Shown here one piece after another: positions 2,724-15,216 of a stretch of 21,100 nt of DNA (the first letter of the stretch is position 1; every line of letters starts with the position of its first letter). Source of the DNA: a virus; IMG/VR virus record IMGVR_UViG_3300025086_000312, positions 1 to 21,100 of that record; one strand, written 5' to 3'. The translations under genes and the position numbers were made by a program. The notes under the pieces were generated by a model. The model saw nothing but the letters and a program-made list of their open reading frames with translations. It ran no database searches and was not told where the DNA came from.

Positions 2724-3083
2724 ATGGCAAACATGAGTTTAGCAGATGCCTACGAAATATTAGAATCACCATCAGATTTTACTAAACAAGAAGTAAAGAA
2801 TGCAAAAGAAAAAGTAGCTGATGCTTCAAAAACTGTACAAGCTAGTAAAGGTGCGCTAATGAAAAAGAAAAAAGATGATAAGGTAACAGTTGTATCAATT
2901 GGTGTAGGCACTATGAAAAAAAGTGACGCTAAGAAAATGGCTAAAGCACAGATGGCTGATGGCGGTATGGCATACGGTAAGAAGCATATGTATTCCGCAG
3001 GTGGTAGCGTAACTATGAACCCCGGACTAAAAGCATTGAAAAAAGCTAGTCCTGAAGCATTTAATAAAATTACTGGCAACTAA
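2724..3083 (+). CDS. Small basic protein with GGM/GGS motifs
   Basis: The 119-residue product has a helical N-terminal half (ANMSLADAYEILESPSDFT...) rich in Lys and Ala. Its C-terminal half carries MADGGMAYGKKHMYSAGGSV (about 77-96). The x-G-G-[M/L/S/V] pattern recurs in several other proteins of this window, including the 1107-residue protein. Function is unknown. The start ATG at 2724 is 1 nt after the previous stop, and the stop overlaps the next start in a TAATG junction, so it belongs to a translationally coupled string. Confidence 0.7.
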   Translation: MANMSLADAYEILESPSDFTKQEVKNAKEKVADASKTVQASKGALMKKKKDDKVTVVSIGVGTMKKSDAKKMAKAQMADGGMAYGKKHMYSAGGSVTMNPGLKALKKASPEAFNKITGN

Positions 3084-3379
3084 TGCGTAGAATACCTAGA
3101 AAGCCGGGACAACCTGCTAAGAGTAAAAAGCATAGTGACCTATATACAGATGAAGACCCAAAGGGTACAATCAAAGGTTTAAAGTTTGCTACAGTAAAAG
3201 ATGCAGAGGCATCTGTGCGTAAGATAAAAGCATCTAGCAGAAGCCATAATCATAAAACACAAGCGGCTATTGCTATGGAGCAAAGGGCTAAAGCAGCAGG
3301 TAAAATCGCAGCAGCTAATGTGTTTAGAAAATTTATAGAACAACAAAAGAAGAAGACACGTGCATCCAGTAGAAGCTGA
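3083..3379 (+). CDS. Basic conserved phage protein, R-K-P-G-Q-P-A-K-S-K-K type
   Basis: The 98-residue product begins MRRIPRKPGQPAKSKKHSD and contains the segment GTIKGLKFATVKDAEASV (28-45), then a helix with AIAMEQRAKAAGK (63-75). From memory this pattern belongs to a conserved family of small proteins in phages and some bacteria; no function is known to me. The C-terminal half looks like a helical hairpin with many Lys/Arg/Ala residues. The start overlaps the preceding stop by one base (TAATG). The last 20 nt overlap the next gene. Confidence 0.75.
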   Translation: MRRIPRKPGQPAKSKKHSDLYTDEDPKGTIKGLKFATVKDAEASVRKIKASSRSHNHKTQAAIAMEQRAKAAGKIAAANVFRKFIEQQKKKTRASSRS

Positions 3380-3890
3380 TATACGTAAGTGGTCACACGA
3401 CTTTCTTGAAGTACCTAATGATAAACTAAATGGATTACCACCCTGTCCATACGCTAGAAAGGCGTGGGTAGATAATCAAGTAAAGTTTAGTATCAACACA
3501 GGATTAGAAGGTCTAACAGAAGAAGTAAAAAATTTTGAAACTCATAACTATGATATAGTAGTATGGGCATCTGAAGAATTACCTGACATAGAATATCTTG
3601 ATGGTATTTGTGACGGTATGAATGAAGCATTATCTATTGCAGGTATTGATATGCACTTGATGGTGTTTCACCCAGACTTCAATGCTAGTGATGCAGGTCT
3701 TGACTTTTTAGAAGAAGATGGTATAACTAGTAGTGAATTAGAATACTGTATGGTATTTATACAAAGATTGTCCGTATTAGATGATGCGGCATTAAGCCTA
3801 GAAAAGTCAGGATACTATAAACATTTTCCTGAAGATACATATAACGCCTTAGTTCTTGATAGAAGGAGATTACGTGATGGCAATGGGTAA
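3360..3890 (+). CDS. Acidic protein with PCPYARKAW motif (DUF1415-like?)
   Basis: The 176-residue, acidic product stands out among basic neighbours. A short N-terminal helix is followed by L-N-G-L-P-P-C-P-Y-A-R-K-A-W (about 23-36). This recalls the CPFA-type motif of the uncharacterised DUF1415 family; the link is tentative. The middle shows alternating strands and helices (NYDIVVWASEELPDI, MHLMVFHPDF), typical of a small alpha/beta fold. The GTG start at 3360 is forced by the lack of an early ATG and lies 20 nt inside the previous gene. The C-terminus overlaps the next gene. Function is unknown. Confidence 0.7.
   Translation: MHPVEADIRKWSHDFLEVPNDKLNGLPPCPYARKAWVDNQVKFSINTGLEGLTEEVKNFETHNYDIVVWASEELPDIEYLDGICDGMNEALSIAGIDMHLMVFHPDFNASDAGLDFLEEDGITSSELEYCMVFIQRLSVLDDAALSLEKSGYYKHFPEDTYNALVLDRRRLRDGNG
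3863..3868 (+). promoter_or_regulatory. Strong ribosome binding site AAGGAG
   Basis: This near-ideal Shine-Dalgarno sequence sits 8 nt before the ATG at 3877, inside the end of the upstream gene. It is the best evidence that the 49-residue Lys/Met/Gly-rich frame is a real, well translated gene. Confidence 0.75.
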
Positions 3891-4026
3891 AGCAAAAATG
3901 GCTAAAAAGAAAAAAATGATGCGCGGTGGCGGTATGACAAAACCTAGAATGATGGGTGGCGGCATGGCTAAAATGGCTAAGAAAAAGAAGATGATGCGTG
4001 GTGGTATGGCTAAGAAAAAGAAGTAA
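3877..4026 (+). CDS. 49-residue Lys/Met/Gly repeat protein, possible DNA condenser
   Basis: This tiny protein contains only Met (13), Lys (16), Gly, Ala, Arg and single Thr and Pro residues. It is two copies of a unit of the form K-M-A-K-K-K-K-M-M-R-G-G-(G)-M (residues 7-20 and 32-44) joined by T-K-P-R-M-M-G-G-G. It has no acidic or aromatic residue and no obvious fold. The extreme positive charge suggests binding to DNA or RNA. The strong AAGGAG 8 nt upstream and the TAATG overlap with the SET methyltransferase gene support a real, co-translated pair. I infer that its lysines may be substrates of that enzyme. Similar short Met/Lys/Gly proteins occur in marine phages as far as I recall, with no known role. 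Confidence 0.7.
   Translation: MAMGKAKMAKKKKMMRGGGMTKPRMMGGGMAKMAKKKKMMRGGMAKKKK
3895..4008 (+). repeat. Internal duplication in the Lys/Met/Gly protein gene
   Basis: Two imperfect direct DNA repeats (3895-3936 and 3970-4008) encode the duplicated protein unit. They differ mainly at third codon positions and by one Gly codon, which suggests an old duplication kept by selection at protein level. Confidence 0.7.
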
Positions 4027-4382
4027 TGCCGTATCTAGCAGATTCTAGTATACATGGTCATGGTATATTTGCAGATAAGGACTATTTCAAAGATGATACT
4101 ATTGAGATGTGTCCTTATCTTCTAGCTGATGAAGATAGTATAAAAGAAGATTGTATATTACATAATTATATTTTTTATTCACCGTATGAAGACGATACAG
4201 ATTTTTTAATACCTCTTGGTTATGCTATGATATATAATCATAGTTTTGAACCTAATGCTGAGTGGGAAATATCTGAAACAGATAATAGGTTTGTTAGATT
4301 TTTTGCAGTTAAAGATATTAAAAAAGATGAAGAGATAGTGCATGATTATGGATATGATTATTGGGAAAGTAGACCAGAATAA
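4026..4382 (+). CDS. Minimal SET-domain protein lysine methyltransferase
   Basis: SET enzymes transfer methyl groups from S-adenosylmethionine to protein lysines. The 118-residue product is a complete minimal SET fold: S-S-I-H-G-H-G-I-F-A-D (7-17) is the N-terminal cofactor loop, GYAMIYNHSFEPNAEW (65-80) contains the NHSxxPN core, and FFAVKDIKKDEEIVHDYG (92-109) has the end of the fold with Tyr108 in the catalytic position. There are no pre-SET or post-SET zinc Cys. The size and the ending Y-G-Y-D-Y-W-E-S-R-P closely resemble, from memory, the 119-residue chlorovirus enzyme vSET. The start overlaps the stop of the Lys-rich repeat protein (TAATG), and the stop overlaps the next small basic gene. 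The substrate is unknown; a host or phage Lys-rich protein is likely. Confidence 0.88.
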   Translation: MPYLADSSIHGHGIFADKDYFKDDTIEMCPYLLADEDSIKEDCILHNYIFYSPYEDDTDFLIPLGYAMIYNHSFEPNAEWEISETDNRFVRFFAVKDIKKDEEIVHDYGYDYWESRPE

Positions 4383-4492
4383 TGGCTAAACAATTTACTA
4401 ATTCTTTTATGGCAAAGAAAAGACTACGAAGACCGGGAAGGCATAAGAAGAATGTTAACAAAGCTGACAAACCTAAAAACTTCTTTGGTTGA
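4382..4492 (+). CDS. 36-residue basic protein, R-R-P-G-R-H-K-K-N type
   Basis: The reading frame starts at ATG 4382, overlapping the stop of the SET gene, and ends at TGA 4490. The peptide has the basic core KKRLRRPGRHKKNVNK (12-27) and ends N-F-F-G. Short proteins with an R-P-G-x-H-K-K-N pattern recur in marine phages as far as I recall. It has 13 Lys/Arg and is probably a nucleic-acid-binding or virion-associated peptide, but no function is known. The coupled position next to the SET enzyme makes it a second candidate substrate. Confidence 0.6.
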   Translation: MAKQFTNSFMAKKRLRRPGRHKKNVNKADKPKNFFG

Positions 4493-4528
4493 TTCATATA
4501 CATACATAGATAAAGTTCGGATAAAGTA

Positions 4529-4888
4529 ATGCCAAGAACGCAAGATGGTTCAAAGTTTGTAACACATTTAACTGCATTAGATTCTACTTCTGATACAGAT
4601 GTATATGTCGTACCAAAAAACTTTTCGTCTAATGTTGAAAATTTAATGATTAACAATAGTAATGCCGCCAACAAAAACTACACATTAAAAATATATGAAA
4701 AATTAACTAACTTAACGCACACTCTTTTTTCTGACCATCCTGTAACAGGTAAAGACTTTGAGAATGTTTTTACAAATAACTTACCTTTATATCTACATGC
4801 AGAAGATAAGATAATAGTTGCGGCTGAAACAGCAGATACATTAACAATACTAGTTGCAGCAGAAGAATTTTTTGACCCAGTGAGATAG
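4529..4888 (+). CDS. Small beta-rich hypothetical protein, possible virion component
   Basis: The 119-residue product is rich in Thr, Val, Asn and alternating hydrophobic residues (e.g. D-T-D-V-Y-V-V-P and T-L-T-I-L-V-A-A), suggesting an all-beta fold. Unlike its neighbours it is not basic. Its composition resembles small virion surface or neck proteins, but no specific family is recognised. It begins after a 36-nt gap, the largest in this gene string, with only a weak ribosome binding site. Prediction as a structural protein is inference from composition. Confidence 0.65.
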   Translation: MPRTQDGSKFVTHLTALDSTSDTDVYVVPKNFSSNVENLMINNSNAANKNYTLKIYEKLTNLTHTLFSDHPVTGKDFENVFTNNLPLYLHAEDKIIVAAETADTLTILVAAEEFFDPVR

Positions 4889-4890
4889 CT

Positions 4891-5175
4891 ATGAAAAATA
4901 CAACAAACAAAAAGAAAGTAAAAAAAGTTGTAGCAGGTTTAAAGAAAGCATCTAATTTACATGCTAAACAAGCTAAAACTTTATCTAGCCTTAAATTAAA
5001 TAAGGGTGGTAGTACAGTAAATAAAGCAGGTAACTATACTAAACCAACAATGCGTAAGAACTTATTTAACAGAATTAAAGCTGGTACTAGTGGTGGTGGT
5101 GCAGGTCAATGGTCTGCTAGAAAAGCCCAGATGTTAGCCAAGCAATATAAAGCCAAGGGTGGTGGTTACAGGTGA
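4891..5175 (+). CDS. Basic protein with GQWSARKAQ motif (DUF5872-like)
   Basis: The 94-residue product has a Lys-rich N-terminus and a conserved-looking C-terminal half: NYTKPTMRKNLFNRIKAG (48-65), G-A-G-Q-W-S-A-R-K-A-Q (70-80) and K-A-K-G-G-G-Y-R at the end. I associate the pattern L-W/F-x-R-I-K-x-G-x-x-G-G-x-x-G-Q-W-S-A-R-K-A-Q with a family found in phages and large viruses, probably DUF5872; this label is unverified. Function is unknown. It starts 3 nt after the previous gene and overlaps the next one by 4 nt. Its composition fits the nucleic-acid-binding theme of this region. Confidence 0.75.
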   Translation: MKNTTNKKKVKKVVAGLKKASNLHAKQAKTLSSLKLNKGGSTVNKAGNYTKPTMRKNLFNRIKAGTSGGGAGQWSARKAQMLAKQYKAKGGGYR

Positions 5176-5848: not shown

Positions 5849-6094
5849 ATGGCACTAGCTAAATCACAACAAAGTTTAAAGTCTTGGACAAAACAAAAGT
5901 GGAGAACTAAAAGTGGCAAGAAATCCAGTGAAACTGGAGAACGGTATTTACCGTCAGCAGCTATCAAGTCCTTATCGGCACAAGAGTACGCGGCTACCAC
6001 GAAAGCTAAACGAGAAGGAAAAAAAGCTGGTCGTCAGTTTGTATCCCAGCCCAAAAAAATAGCAAAGAAAACAGCGAGGTTTAGACGTGCTTAA
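5849..6094 (+). CDS. Basic conserved phage protein, K-W-R-T-K-S-G-K type
   Basis: The 81-residue product contains SLKSWTKQKWRTKSGKKS (9-26), E-R-Y-L-P-S-A-A-I-K-S-L (31-42), EYAATTKAKREGKKAGRQF (46-64) and QPKKIAKKTARFRR at the C-terminus. I recall this as a well conserved small family in phages and some bacteria with no assigned function. Conserved Trp and dense Lys/Arg suggest nucleic-acid binding. It starts 1 nt after the previous stop and overlaps the holin gene by 8 nt. Confidence 0.78.
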   Translation: MALAKSQQSLKSWTKQKWRTKSGKKSSETGERYLPSAAIKSLSAQEYAATTKAKREGKKAGRQFVSQPKKIAKKTARFRRA

Positions 6095-11773: not shown

Positions 11774-11909
11774 TTATATAGAGTTAACTATTGAACAACA
11801 TCAAAAACTTTTAGAACAAACAGACGATGCAGTACTAATACATAGACAACAGGGTGCAATAGCTGTATTGCGTAAACTTAAAATGTTGAGAGATGAAGTT
11901 AATGGATGA
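11694..11909 (+). CDS. Small helical protein after the portal
   Basis: The roughly 71-residue product (MDNNRKQILSNLKTL...) is mostly helical, with L-T-I-E-Q-H-Q-K-L-L-E-Q-T-D-D-A-V-L and LRKLKMLRDEV suggesting a short coiled coil. Small helical proteins of this kind follow the portal gene in related marine phages as I recall; the function is unknown. The gene begins inside the portal's Gln/Pro-rich tail in another frame (80-nt overlap). AAGGA at 11679-11683 is 10 nt before ATG 11694; a GTG at 11688 is an alternative start. It overlaps the next gene by 17 nt. Confidence 0.7.
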   Translation: MDNNRKQILSNLKTLVNHPKQWEAFSSYIELTIEQHQKLLEQTDDAVLIHRQQGAIAVLRKLKMLRDEVNG

Positions 11910-14900
11910 GAATGAATTTCTTGAATCTTATGTAGATATACTAGGAGATATAGAAGGTAAAGAAGGTGGCGACACCACCACAGATATTTTTACTAGAGAA
12001 TTAGGAATTGTAGATACTTTAGGAATAGACCCTGCTGATTATCCCAACAATCCCAGAGGATTAGCAAAAGCAGTAGCCGAAAAAAATATTCAAGAATTAA
12101 AAAGAATAGGTGTAAATTGGGATGAGTTGCCACTGTCTATGAAATACAATGCATTAGATATGCAATTTAACTTTGGTAGTTTAAACGTAAAAGCAAAAAA
12201 TTATTTAGCTAATTTAAAAACAAAAAACTATGCAGGTGCAATAAATGAAACATTGGATGCATTAAGTGCAAGTGACCCTAAAGATGGAAAGCAAAGACCC
12301 GTAAAAGGTATAGCATTAAGAAGAGCAAAGTTTTATAATTTAGTTGCTTCAGACCTTGGTATTCCACTAATAACTAGTGTAGATGCTGTAAATCAAGACA
12401 ATGCTCAAAAGAGTGCAAAGTTTACTTATAAGTTAGACGATGGTAAGGATATAGTAAAACCTTTTACTGTTATGTCATTACATAGTAGAAGTGTACCCGG
12501 TGCTGAAAAAGTATTAGGTTTTGAAGATAAAGTTGTTATTAAACCAACAGGGAAAGAACTTCCTGTATCTGATTTAGAAGAAAAAGGAATAGGACAGCAA
12601 ACTAAATCTGCATTTCCTATGACAGGTGATGAACAATATTTAGACCAAGAAGGTCCTATAAGAGATACAGGAGAACTAGTAGAGCCTGAAGAAAGTAGTG
12701 GTATTTTAGACAGAATAAAAGATTTTATTAGTTTAGATACAGATGAAGAAAAAAAATTAAAAGAAATAAGAAAACAAGAACCTGAAGTATTAGATTTGCC
12801 AGATGAGTTATCTGAAGCAAGAAATTTTAATGTTCTTAGAAAAATGTATCAAGACAAAAAATTTAATGAAGGTGGTCTATCTTTATCAGAACAAATGAAT
12901 ACAATACAAGACCCAGCAGTTAAACAAGATACAAATAAAACAACAGTAGAAAAACTAAAAGATGTAGCAAAATTTGGTGCAGAGTTTATTCCCGGAGTTG
13001 GGGAAGCTATGGCAGTAAAACGTGTATCAGATGCTATGGATGAAAAAGACTATGTTAGTGCTGGTATTGAAACTGCAGCTGGTGCATTAGGTTTGCTTCC
13101 TATAGTAGGTGATGTAGCAGGTAAAGGGTTAAGAAAAGTATTTAGCAGAAAAGAAATTGAGGATGCTAGTCCATCTTGGTTTAAAGAAACAGAAGTATCT
13201 AAAGACATTAAGCCAGAAGATGCTCAAAAAACACAAATTACTACAACTACATCTACTTATAAAAAATCAAAAGAAATTTTACCAGAAGGTAAAACACTTG
13301 ATTTTGGCGCAGGTAAAGGAGTAGGTGCTAAAGAAGTAGGTTCTGATACCTATGAACCTTTTCCTGATAAATCTTTTTCTCCAACATATACTGATTCTAA
13401 AAGTATTCCAAGTAATAGTTATGACAACATAACTAGTTTAAATGTTTTAAATGTTGTTAAACCTGATATAAGAAGTGATATAGTACAAGATATTGGTCGT
13501 ATTTTAAAACCAAATGGAACAGCAATTATAACTACAAGAGGAATGGATGTTTTTGGAAATGCTAATAATCCAGTTAAAGGAATATTAGCTGATGAACCTC
13601 GTGCAGTTATTACTAGCACTGGAACATATCAAAAAGGTTTTACTCCTAAAGAATTAAAAGAGTACATTGAATCCGAATTAGGTGAAAATTTTGAAGTTAC
13701 TAATGTGCGTGATTTAGGTAAAGCAGGTGTTAAAGTAAAGAAAAATTTAGAAATGGCAGAAGGTGGAGCAGTACCTATGGAAAAACAAATGAGCATGTTT
13801 GACAATGGCGGTCTTATGGACGAAGGTGGAACAATAGACCCTATATCAGGTAATGATGTTCCACCCGGGTCAACGCAAGAAGAAGTAAGAGATGATATAC
13901 CTGCACAATTAAGTGAAGGCGAGTTTGTATTTCCTGCTGACGTAGTGCGATATATAGGTCTTGAAAAACTTATGCAGATGAGACAGCAAGCTAAGATGGG
14001 TTTGCAGACAATGGATGACATGGGGCAGATGGGTAATAGTGAGGAAGCTATTATGCCTGATAATATACCATTTGAACTGTCTGACCTTGACATGGATGAT
14101 GACCCAGTAGAAATGAACACAGGTGGTGTTGCTGGTGTAAGCAGTGTTCCTTCACAAGTACCTGCTACTTCGTTTTTGCAAGCACCTGAAGCACCTACTG
14201 TACCTACTCCTGCTCCAACACCTACAGCGTCTACTGTTCCAATAGCACCTACATATACACCACCTACACAACAAGCACCACCTATTGCTCCAGATTATAG
14301 TGAACTTGCATACAAAGATGTAATGTCAACTCCTGAATTAGCTGCAAGACTTGTAGATATAATTAATCCAACTACGGGTGAAAAAAGAACAATTAATTTT
14401 ATTCCCGGTGTAACACCAATACCAGATGGTTTTGTATTTGCTAGTGAATATACTGCACCTAAAACGCAAGCAACATCTGTAACACCTGTTGCAGGTCAAG
14501 AACAAGTAAGACAAGATACTTCAAGTGAACGTAGAAAAGATGAAGAACAAAGAAAACAATTTGAAGAAGCTAAGAATAGAAAAAAAATAATAGCTGAAAT
14601 GTTTGGAGAAGAGTATCTAACAGGTCGTGGTGCTAAACCTTTTAGTGATTTATTAGGAAAACAAGAACCGGGAACTGTAACAACTAATGGATATATTGTT
14701 GGTGATAATGGTGAAATATTAAATCCAATAACAGGAGAACAAGAATTTTTAGGTCTTGCTGTTGACTTAGGACTTAAAGATAAACCACCATTAGATACAT
14801 CTAAAGAAAATGGAGTTAATAGAAGACTACAAAGAGCAATAATGCTACGAAAAGGCGAAGAAAGACGTTCTAAAATAACACCCGAACAAAGGGCAAGAGA

Positions 14901-15216
14901 TAAGGATAAAGCAGAAAAAGCATTTGCGTCATCTATACAAAGTGATGCTTTAAAAGAAATGAGAAATGTAAATACAAAACCTATCTCTGAAAAAAGTAGT
15001 GCGGAACAAATAAAAAAAGAAAAAGAAAAAAGAGCAGATGCAAGAGAACGACAACGAGAAAGATTAAAAGCATCGCAAGAAAGAGCAAGAGAAAGAGCAA
15101 AAACTAAAGTAGACCCAAAAGGTGATTATGGTCTAGGTATTGCAAAAGGTGGTTTATTATCAAAACCTAAACCAAAACCTAAAAAGATGAGGCAAGGTGG
15201 ATTAGCCTCAAGATAA
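11893..15216 (+). CDS. 1107-residue multidomain virion/ejection protein with lysozyme-like and methyltransferase domains
   Basis: Domains in order: residues 1-160 look like a lysozyme-like muramidase (E-G-K-E-G-G at 21-26, LDMQFNFG at 88-95, then L-R-R-A-K-F-Y-N-L). Residues about 360-420 are Gly/Ala-rich and hydrophobic (IPGVGEAMA, A-L-G-L-L-P-I-V-G-D), a possible membrane-insertion segment. Residues about 450-620 are a class I SAM methyltransferase fold (LDFGAGKG at 469-476, YDNITSLNVLNVV, then ILKPNGTAIITTRG). Residues 667-690 are DIPAQLSEGEFVFPADVV, a module common in marine phage proteins. A Pro/Thr-rich linker (about 750-805) and a Lys/Arg/Glu coiled coil (about 950-1065) follow, ending K-P-K-P-K-P-K-K. 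It lies between portal and scaffold, so it is probably packaged and ejected. ATG 11902 is an alternative start. Confidence 0.75.
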   Translation: MKLMDENEFLESYVDILGDIEGKEGGDTTTDIFTRELGIVDTLGIDPADYPNNPRGLAKAVAEKNIQELKRIGVNWDELPLSMKYNALDMQFNFGSLNVKAKNYLANLKTKNYAGAINETLDALSASDPKDGKQRPVKGIALRRAKFYNLVASDLGIPLITSVDAVNQDNAQKSAKFTYKLDDGKDIVKPFTVMSLHSRSVPGAEKVLGFEDKVVIKPTGKELPVSDLEEKGIGQQTKSAFPMTGDEQYLDQEGPIRDTGELVEPEESSGILDRIKDFISLDTDEEKKLKEIRKQEPEVLDLPDELSEARNFNVLRKMYQDKKFNEGGLSLSEQMNTIQDPAVKQDTNKTTVEKLKDVAKFGAEFIPGVGEAMAVKRVSDAMDEKDYVSAGIETAAGALGLLPIVGDVAGKGLRKVFSRKEIEDASPSWFKETEVSKDIKPEDAQKTQITTTTSTYKKSKEILPEGKTLDFGAGKGVGAKEVGSDTYEPFPDKSFSPTYTDSKSIPSNSYDNITSLNVLNVVKPDIRSDIVQDIGRILKPNGTAIITTRGMDVFGNANNPVKGILADEPRAVITSTGTYQKGFTPKELKEYIESELGENFEVTNVRDLGKAGVKVKKNLEMAEGGAVPMEKQMSMFDNGGLMDEGGTIDPISGNDVPPGSTQEEVRDDIPAQLSEGEFVFPADVVRYIGLEKLMQMRQQAKMGLQTMDDMGQMGNSEEAIMPDNIPFELSDLDMDDDPVEMNTGGVAGVSSVPSQVPATSFLQAPEAPTVPTPAPTPTASTVPIAPTYTPPTQQAPPIAPDYSELAYKDVMSTPELAARLVDIINPTTGEKRTINFIPGVTPIPDGFVFASEYTAPKTQATSVTPVAGQEQVRQDTSSERRKDEEQRKQFEEAKNRKKIIAEMFGEEYLTGRGAKPFSDLLGKQEPGTVTTNGYIVGDNGEILNPITGEQEFLGLAVDLGLKDKPPLDTSKENGVNRRLQRAIMLRKGEERRSKITPEQRARDKDKAEKAFASSIQSDALKEMRNVNTKPISEKSSAEQIKKEKEKRADARERQRERLKASQERARERAKTKVDPKGDYGLGIAKGGLLSKPKPKPKKMRQGGLASR

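Follow-up and report, generated by a model that had tools for sequence, protein, structure and literature searches.

A SET-domain gene and a matched lysine-rich repeat gene in HMO-2011-type marine phages: a candidate methyltransferase and its candidate substrate

A gene predicted to encode a minimal SET-domain lysine methyltransferase was found directly behind a gene for a small lysine-rich repeat protein in the 21,100-nucleotide stretch of viral DNA analysed here (positions 1 to 21,100 of IMG/VR record IMGVR_UViG_3300025086_000312, hereafter the window), and among related phages the repeat gene has a distinctive allele that accompanies the SET gene. Since this SET-specific allele changes with gain and loss of the SET gene, the phage is suggested to methylate its own lysine-rich protein. 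On these comparisons there is about an even chance that the repeat protein is the main substrate of the SET protein and is methylated at or near its N-terminal GKAKMAKKK tail.

The coat protein encoded in the window shares 81-82% identity with its counterparts in two cultivated phages, Puniceispirillum phage HMO-2011 and Roseobacter phage CRP-345, and the portal/terminase region has about 75-77% DNA identity to the same two genomes. Judged by these homologies, the window is that of an HMO-2011-type marine phage, and the coat, portal and terminase matches bear out a previous interpretation of the DNA (hereafter the sequence-only reading) as that of a phage. Phages of this type are described in PMC9038755 as an abundant marine group with hosts among SAR116, Roseobacter and SAR11 bacteria; the section of that paper devoted to metabolic genes makes no mention of any SET protein. 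An open-access literature search found no paper combining 'SET domain' and 'HMO-2011', and no SET methyltransferase with an assigned substrate for HMO-2011-type phages; to our knowledge, no such enzyme with an assigned substrate has been described for any bacteriophage. The SET gene is absent from HMO-2011 and from the CRP isolates, and among annotated phages it was found only in two 735-kb uncultured phage records, both with the same match (39%). Elsewhere in the window, a 1107-aa protein of what is apparently the structural region (11893-15216) has a weak methyltransferase-domain match mid-protein (residues about 462-550, E 4e-4, under the Pfam cut-off).

The SET gene (4026..4382, + strand) encodes a 118-aa protein that matches the whole of the PF00856 profile (positions 1-105 of 105; E 5.9e-14; score 52.8 bits, cut-off 22.4 bits). 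In a sequence search of the PDB it matched vSET (1n3j, E 1e-13, aligned across residues 6-117) and PFL0690c (4rz0, E 3e-11). An AlphaFold model based on a 94-row alignment (pLDDT 87.6, pTM 0.78), used instead of the poor model obtained from an alignment of 27 close relatives (pLDDT 67), has the SET beta-clip fold and gives Z scores of 12-16 to many SET structures, including 15.8 to 4rz0 and 14.8 to vSET (3kma). The protein contains the motifs NHS (71-73), P76-N77 and D107-Y108-G109 and the C-terminal Y-W-E-S-R-P; residues G11, G13, N71, H72, S73 and Y108 are invariant in 27 phage relatives, and across the 94 rows of phage and bacterial relatives the same holds for G13, N71, H72 and Y108. Among close phage copies the median dN/dS is 0.11, indicating strong purifying constraint on the protein. 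The tyrosine at position 16 of vSET, which we take to be important, aligns with residue 12 of the phage protein, and because this residue is variable (H/Q/L/F) it was not used as evidence. By all testable features the 118-aa protein belongs to the SET family, with predicted lysine methyltransferase activity. Thus the sequence-only reading was correct in the coordinates of the SET gene and the repeat gene and in the motif residues, and its proposal of a complete SET fold, for which structure prediction and a SET profile search had been named as checks, is upheld by PF00856, the PDB sequence match and the model (Z 15-16); the description of the enzyme as vSET-like also holds, vSET being among the best solved relatives by both sequence and fold.

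Immediately upstream is the repeat gene (3877..4026, + strand), which encodes a 49-aa protein of Lys/Met/Gly repeats, beginning MAMGKAKMAKKKKMMRGG..., composed almost exclusively of K, M, G, A and R, with a net charge of about +19 to +21 and the motif GKAKMAK at residues 4-10; the ORF listing also allows a longer version with a TTG start at 3856. No match to this protein was found in Pfam or PHROG, and no DNA-binding family was recognised. The last base of its TAA stop codon is the first base of the SET ATG (TAATG, a 1-nt overlap), and its own start is overlapped by the stop of a neighbour gene (3360..3890, + strand) encoding a 176-aa protein of phrog_28122 (E 2.5e-76; unknown function), which served as a phylogenetic marker. 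Directly 3' of the SET gene is a Lys/Arg-rich ORF of 36 aa, MAKQFTNSFMAKKRLRRPGRHKKNVNKADKPKNFFG (4383..4490, + strand), which is kept with or without SET; it is retained in near-identical relatives that lack SET and forms the right-hand boundary of the exchanged block. Further small basic ORFs surround the SET gene at 1622-1915, 2724-3083, 3083-3379, 4891-5175 and 5849-6094. In CRP-345 the repeat gene is gp77 (40 aa), and in HMO-2011 an unannotated Lys-rich repeat gene lies between phage1322_66 and phage1322_65 (locus L085, about 4504-4655). Four loci (L159, L164, L275 and L257) encode alternative N-terminal domains, of the EKGDP... and MATREEQ/MASREER types, fused before the Lys-rich repeats; this modularity of the N-terminus occurs in phages with and without SET alike.

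The opposite net charges of the two proteins (-21 for SET and +21 for the repeat protein) could also suggest a catalytically dead SET protein that acts as an acidic chaperone, neutralising its basic neighbour. This is scarcely credible, given that the catalytic Tyr and NHS are invariant in the phage copies (Y108, N71 and H72 are present in 94/94 rows), as expected of an active enzyme.

Conservation of the gene pair was examined by scanning IMG/VR with the 176-aa neighbour gene, which identified 302 relatives. In a first comparison of 81 loci, made up of the window and 80 relatives, 36 had the SET gene, and the repeat gene followed the neighbour gene in essentially all. Further scans enlarged the comparison to 198 distinct loci, 76 with SET and 122 without, numbers that do not represent a frequency because a SET-based scan enriched the SET-positive loci. 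Only two of the 198 loci, both of them lacking SET, yielded no repeat gene, which is therefore nearly universal and far commoner than the optional SET gene; its presence in so many phages without SET means that methylation would not be needed for the core role of the repeat protein. Wherever SET was found in an HMO-type locus with sufficient upstream sequence, it was directly behind the repeat gene (75/75), with the 1-nt overlap in 68 of those 75 loci; one SET locus has a gap of 371 nt to the nearest repeat ORF found. Conservation of the pair across related contigs, which the sequence-only reading had put forward as a check, was thus observed, and together with the low dN/dS of SET it indicates more than chance association.

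The repeat protein differs between phages with and without SET. Of the 76 SET-positive loci, 69 encode the motif GKAKMAK in the N-terminus of this protein, adjoining the beginning of the repeats, as against 0 of the 122 SET-lacking loci, and the remaining 7 SET-positive phages have a repeat gene without the motif. At the same place, loci lacking SET have GKTKVA (25 loci), GKTKMA (15), GKAKAA (9), GKMKMA (6), GKKKMA (6), others, or none. The sequence GKAKMAKK is encoded by 21 distinct DNA sequences, and GKAKMAK is retained even when another N-terminal domain precedes it (L159 and L164). The allele that accompanies SET differs over its whole length, having MMGGGM repeats and almost no Val.

Among the proteins of the region, the repeat protein has the best association with SET presence (phi 0.91). 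The phi of 0.71 for the neighbour gene stems from one large SET-positive clade, and a tree-based test of pairs was therefore needed. On the neighbour-gene tree, SET state has changed at least 12-14 times; of the 8 supported independent pairs, about 7 show the motif following SET and none the opposite (sign test, p about 0.016). Phylogenetic confounding was rejected as the cause, since neighbour-gene peptides do not follow SET on the independent pairs. Other Lys-rich proteins of the region, which the sequence-only reading had included among possible substrates, show weak association with SET presence (phi 0.35-0.48) and were rejected as matched partners. Although several small basic ORFs are nearby, it is on this evidence highly unlikely that SET methylates other Lys-rich structural or DNA-condensing phage proteins of the region and not the repeat protein.

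A natural near-isogenic pair is formed by the window and one SET-lacking relative (L005), whose flanking DNA is about 92-97% identical to that of the window on both sides; L005 shows a clean absence of the SET gene together with a simultaneous exchange of the repeat allele. Because the repeat gene and SET are adjacent, exchange of a block could yield the allele association without any enzyme-substrate relation: the repeat allele and SET would constitute a linked recombination cassette, the association would be due to hitchhiking, and the two proteins would not interact. The direct adjacency of the genes, their joint change in the window/L005 pair, and the distinctness of the SET-positive allele along its entire length, beyond the motif, are all consistent with such a cassette. 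However, simple deletion of SET should then leave the SET-positive allele in some phages without SET, and it was seen in 0 of 122; moreover, the linkage is breakable, as evidenced by the 7 SET-positive loci with motif-less repeat genes, and the motif is invariant across its 21 DNA encodings. Hitchhiking in a cassette is considered distinctly unlikely as the whole explanation of the matched alleles.

The origin of the SET gene was investigated in a scan of species genomes of bacteria and archaea, about 85,000 in all. The closest cellular relatives, about 45-54% identical, are alphaproteobacterial and mostly labelled SAR116/Puniceispirillum; SAR116 is the host group of HMO-2011. Of the 136 genomes of the SAR116 order (Puniceispirillales), 54 carry the gene, in several unlinked contexts among metabolic genes (L168-L205), with no repeat gene adjacent. 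In trees of phage and bacterial SET proteins, the phage copies group next to those of SAR116, each set on its own side of a branch (support 86-88 for the phages and 87-93 for SAR116), and other bacteria, mainly Bacteroidota, fall outside both; the exact branching is uncertain because the alignment has about 120 columns. The simplest reading is a host-to-phage transfer of the gene, its source probably a bacterial host. Both the wider spread of the repeat gene and the SAR116 kinship of the enzyme had escaped the sequence-only reading. SET proteins 58-62% identical to the SAR116 type are also encoded in unrelated phage contigs (L415-L432, L435 and L448-L450), where they adjoin genes for integrase, primase, or DnaB-like or other helicases and have no Lys-rich repeat. 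Thus SET can serve phages without the repeat protein, and the pairing of SET with a Lys-rich repeat was rejected as a general rule. In six viral contigs (L453, L454, L455, L463, L473 and L479), SET adjoins a GMP reductase/IMP dehydrogenase-like gene; several of these contigs are large, at 22 to 205 kb.

These relatives bear on another explanation, that SET targets a host protein (for example ribosomal or nucleoid), replacing or overriding the host SET during infection, the site beside the repeat gene being a tolerated insertion. The SAR116 chromosomal genes in unlinked metabolic contexts, and the SAR116-like SET genes of other phage contigs beside primase/helicase genes, would both fit a host target, which accounts for the origin of the gene and its occurrence in other phages, but not for the matched allele. 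A host target also leaves unexplained the acidity of the HMO-type enzymes, which have a median net charge of -21, compared with -14 for SAR116 SETs and -14.5 for other SAR116-like viral SETs (the p-value of this comparison overstates the evidence, the sequences being related and hence not independent). Furthermore, no protein bearing the motif was found in the 136 host genomes: a degenerate KAKMAKK pattern gave three DNA matches in these Puniceispirillales genomes, all at the start of ribosomal L11 (MAKK) preceded by untranslated bases, and mimicry of a host protein was rejected. A host target is judged rather unlikely, though less so than the other alternatives. The extra acidity of the HMO-type SET proteins is consistent with their having adapted to a strongly basic partner such as the repeat protein.

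Several known systems resemble the phage pair in part. The protein vSET (A612L of PBCV-1), a chlorovirus histone H3K27 methyltransferase of about 119 aa, is likewise a minimal stand-alone SET protein with no pre-/post-SET domains and the same Y-G-x-D-Y-W-x-S-R-P C-terminus, and it superimposes on the phage model at 2.0 A over 101 residues (Z 14.8; 31% identical). It differs in that it belongs to an algal virus and acts on a host histone, whereas the phage protein is closest among cells to SAR116 genes; we know of no substrate gene adjoining that of vSET. The best structural match, Plasmodium falciparum PFL0690c (4rz0; Z 15.8 over 105 residues), differs in being a eukaryotic putative histone methyltransferase. 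The SAR116 chromosomal SET proteins are of the same size as the phage protein and 45-54% identical to it, but are less acidic and have no adjacent repeat gene. In Methanosarcina mazei, the DNA-binding protein MC1-alpha is a substrate of Go1-SET in vitro (PMC3980110; Manzur and Zhou 2005). This system resembles the phage pair in that a prokaryotic SET protein is associated with a small basic protein from its own organism, the substrate in the phage being a candidate. Go1-SET differs in being a cellular archaeal gene product with a chromosomal DNA-binding substrate and with methylation proven in vitro.

The mechanism proposed is that the SET protein would be an active, stand-alone lysine methyltransferase of host-like origin, made together with the repeat protein from what may be a shared message, and would act mainly on the repeat protein, whose N-terminal GKAKMAKKK tail, or the residues close to it, would be methylated on at least one lysine. 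Of the substrates offered by the sequence-only reading, the phage's own repeat protein is the best candidate, given the matched alleles and the conserved pair, and the methylation itself stands as a prediction. The histone-like role and the host shut-down that the sequence-only reading raised stand as conjectures. As the genes belong to the half of the genome that covers packaging and structure, the simplest proposal is that methylation might tune, in late morphogenesis, the binding of this charged, disordered phage protein to DNA or to partners in the capsid. The fuller interpretation, a phage writer-and-substrate module in which a host-derived SET protein methylates a histone-tail-like N-terminus and thereby controls DNA packing in the virion or another late step, is advanced tentatively and is on balance doubtful.

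An enzyme and its candidate substrate would thus form one genetic unit that recurs in many genomes of a very abundant marine phage group. The sharp GKAKMAK signature makes the question of the substrate directly testable with the 49-aa protein or a 13-residue peptide. If the proposal is true, phages would have recruited histone-tail-like lysine methylation, with a bacterial host gene as the likely source.
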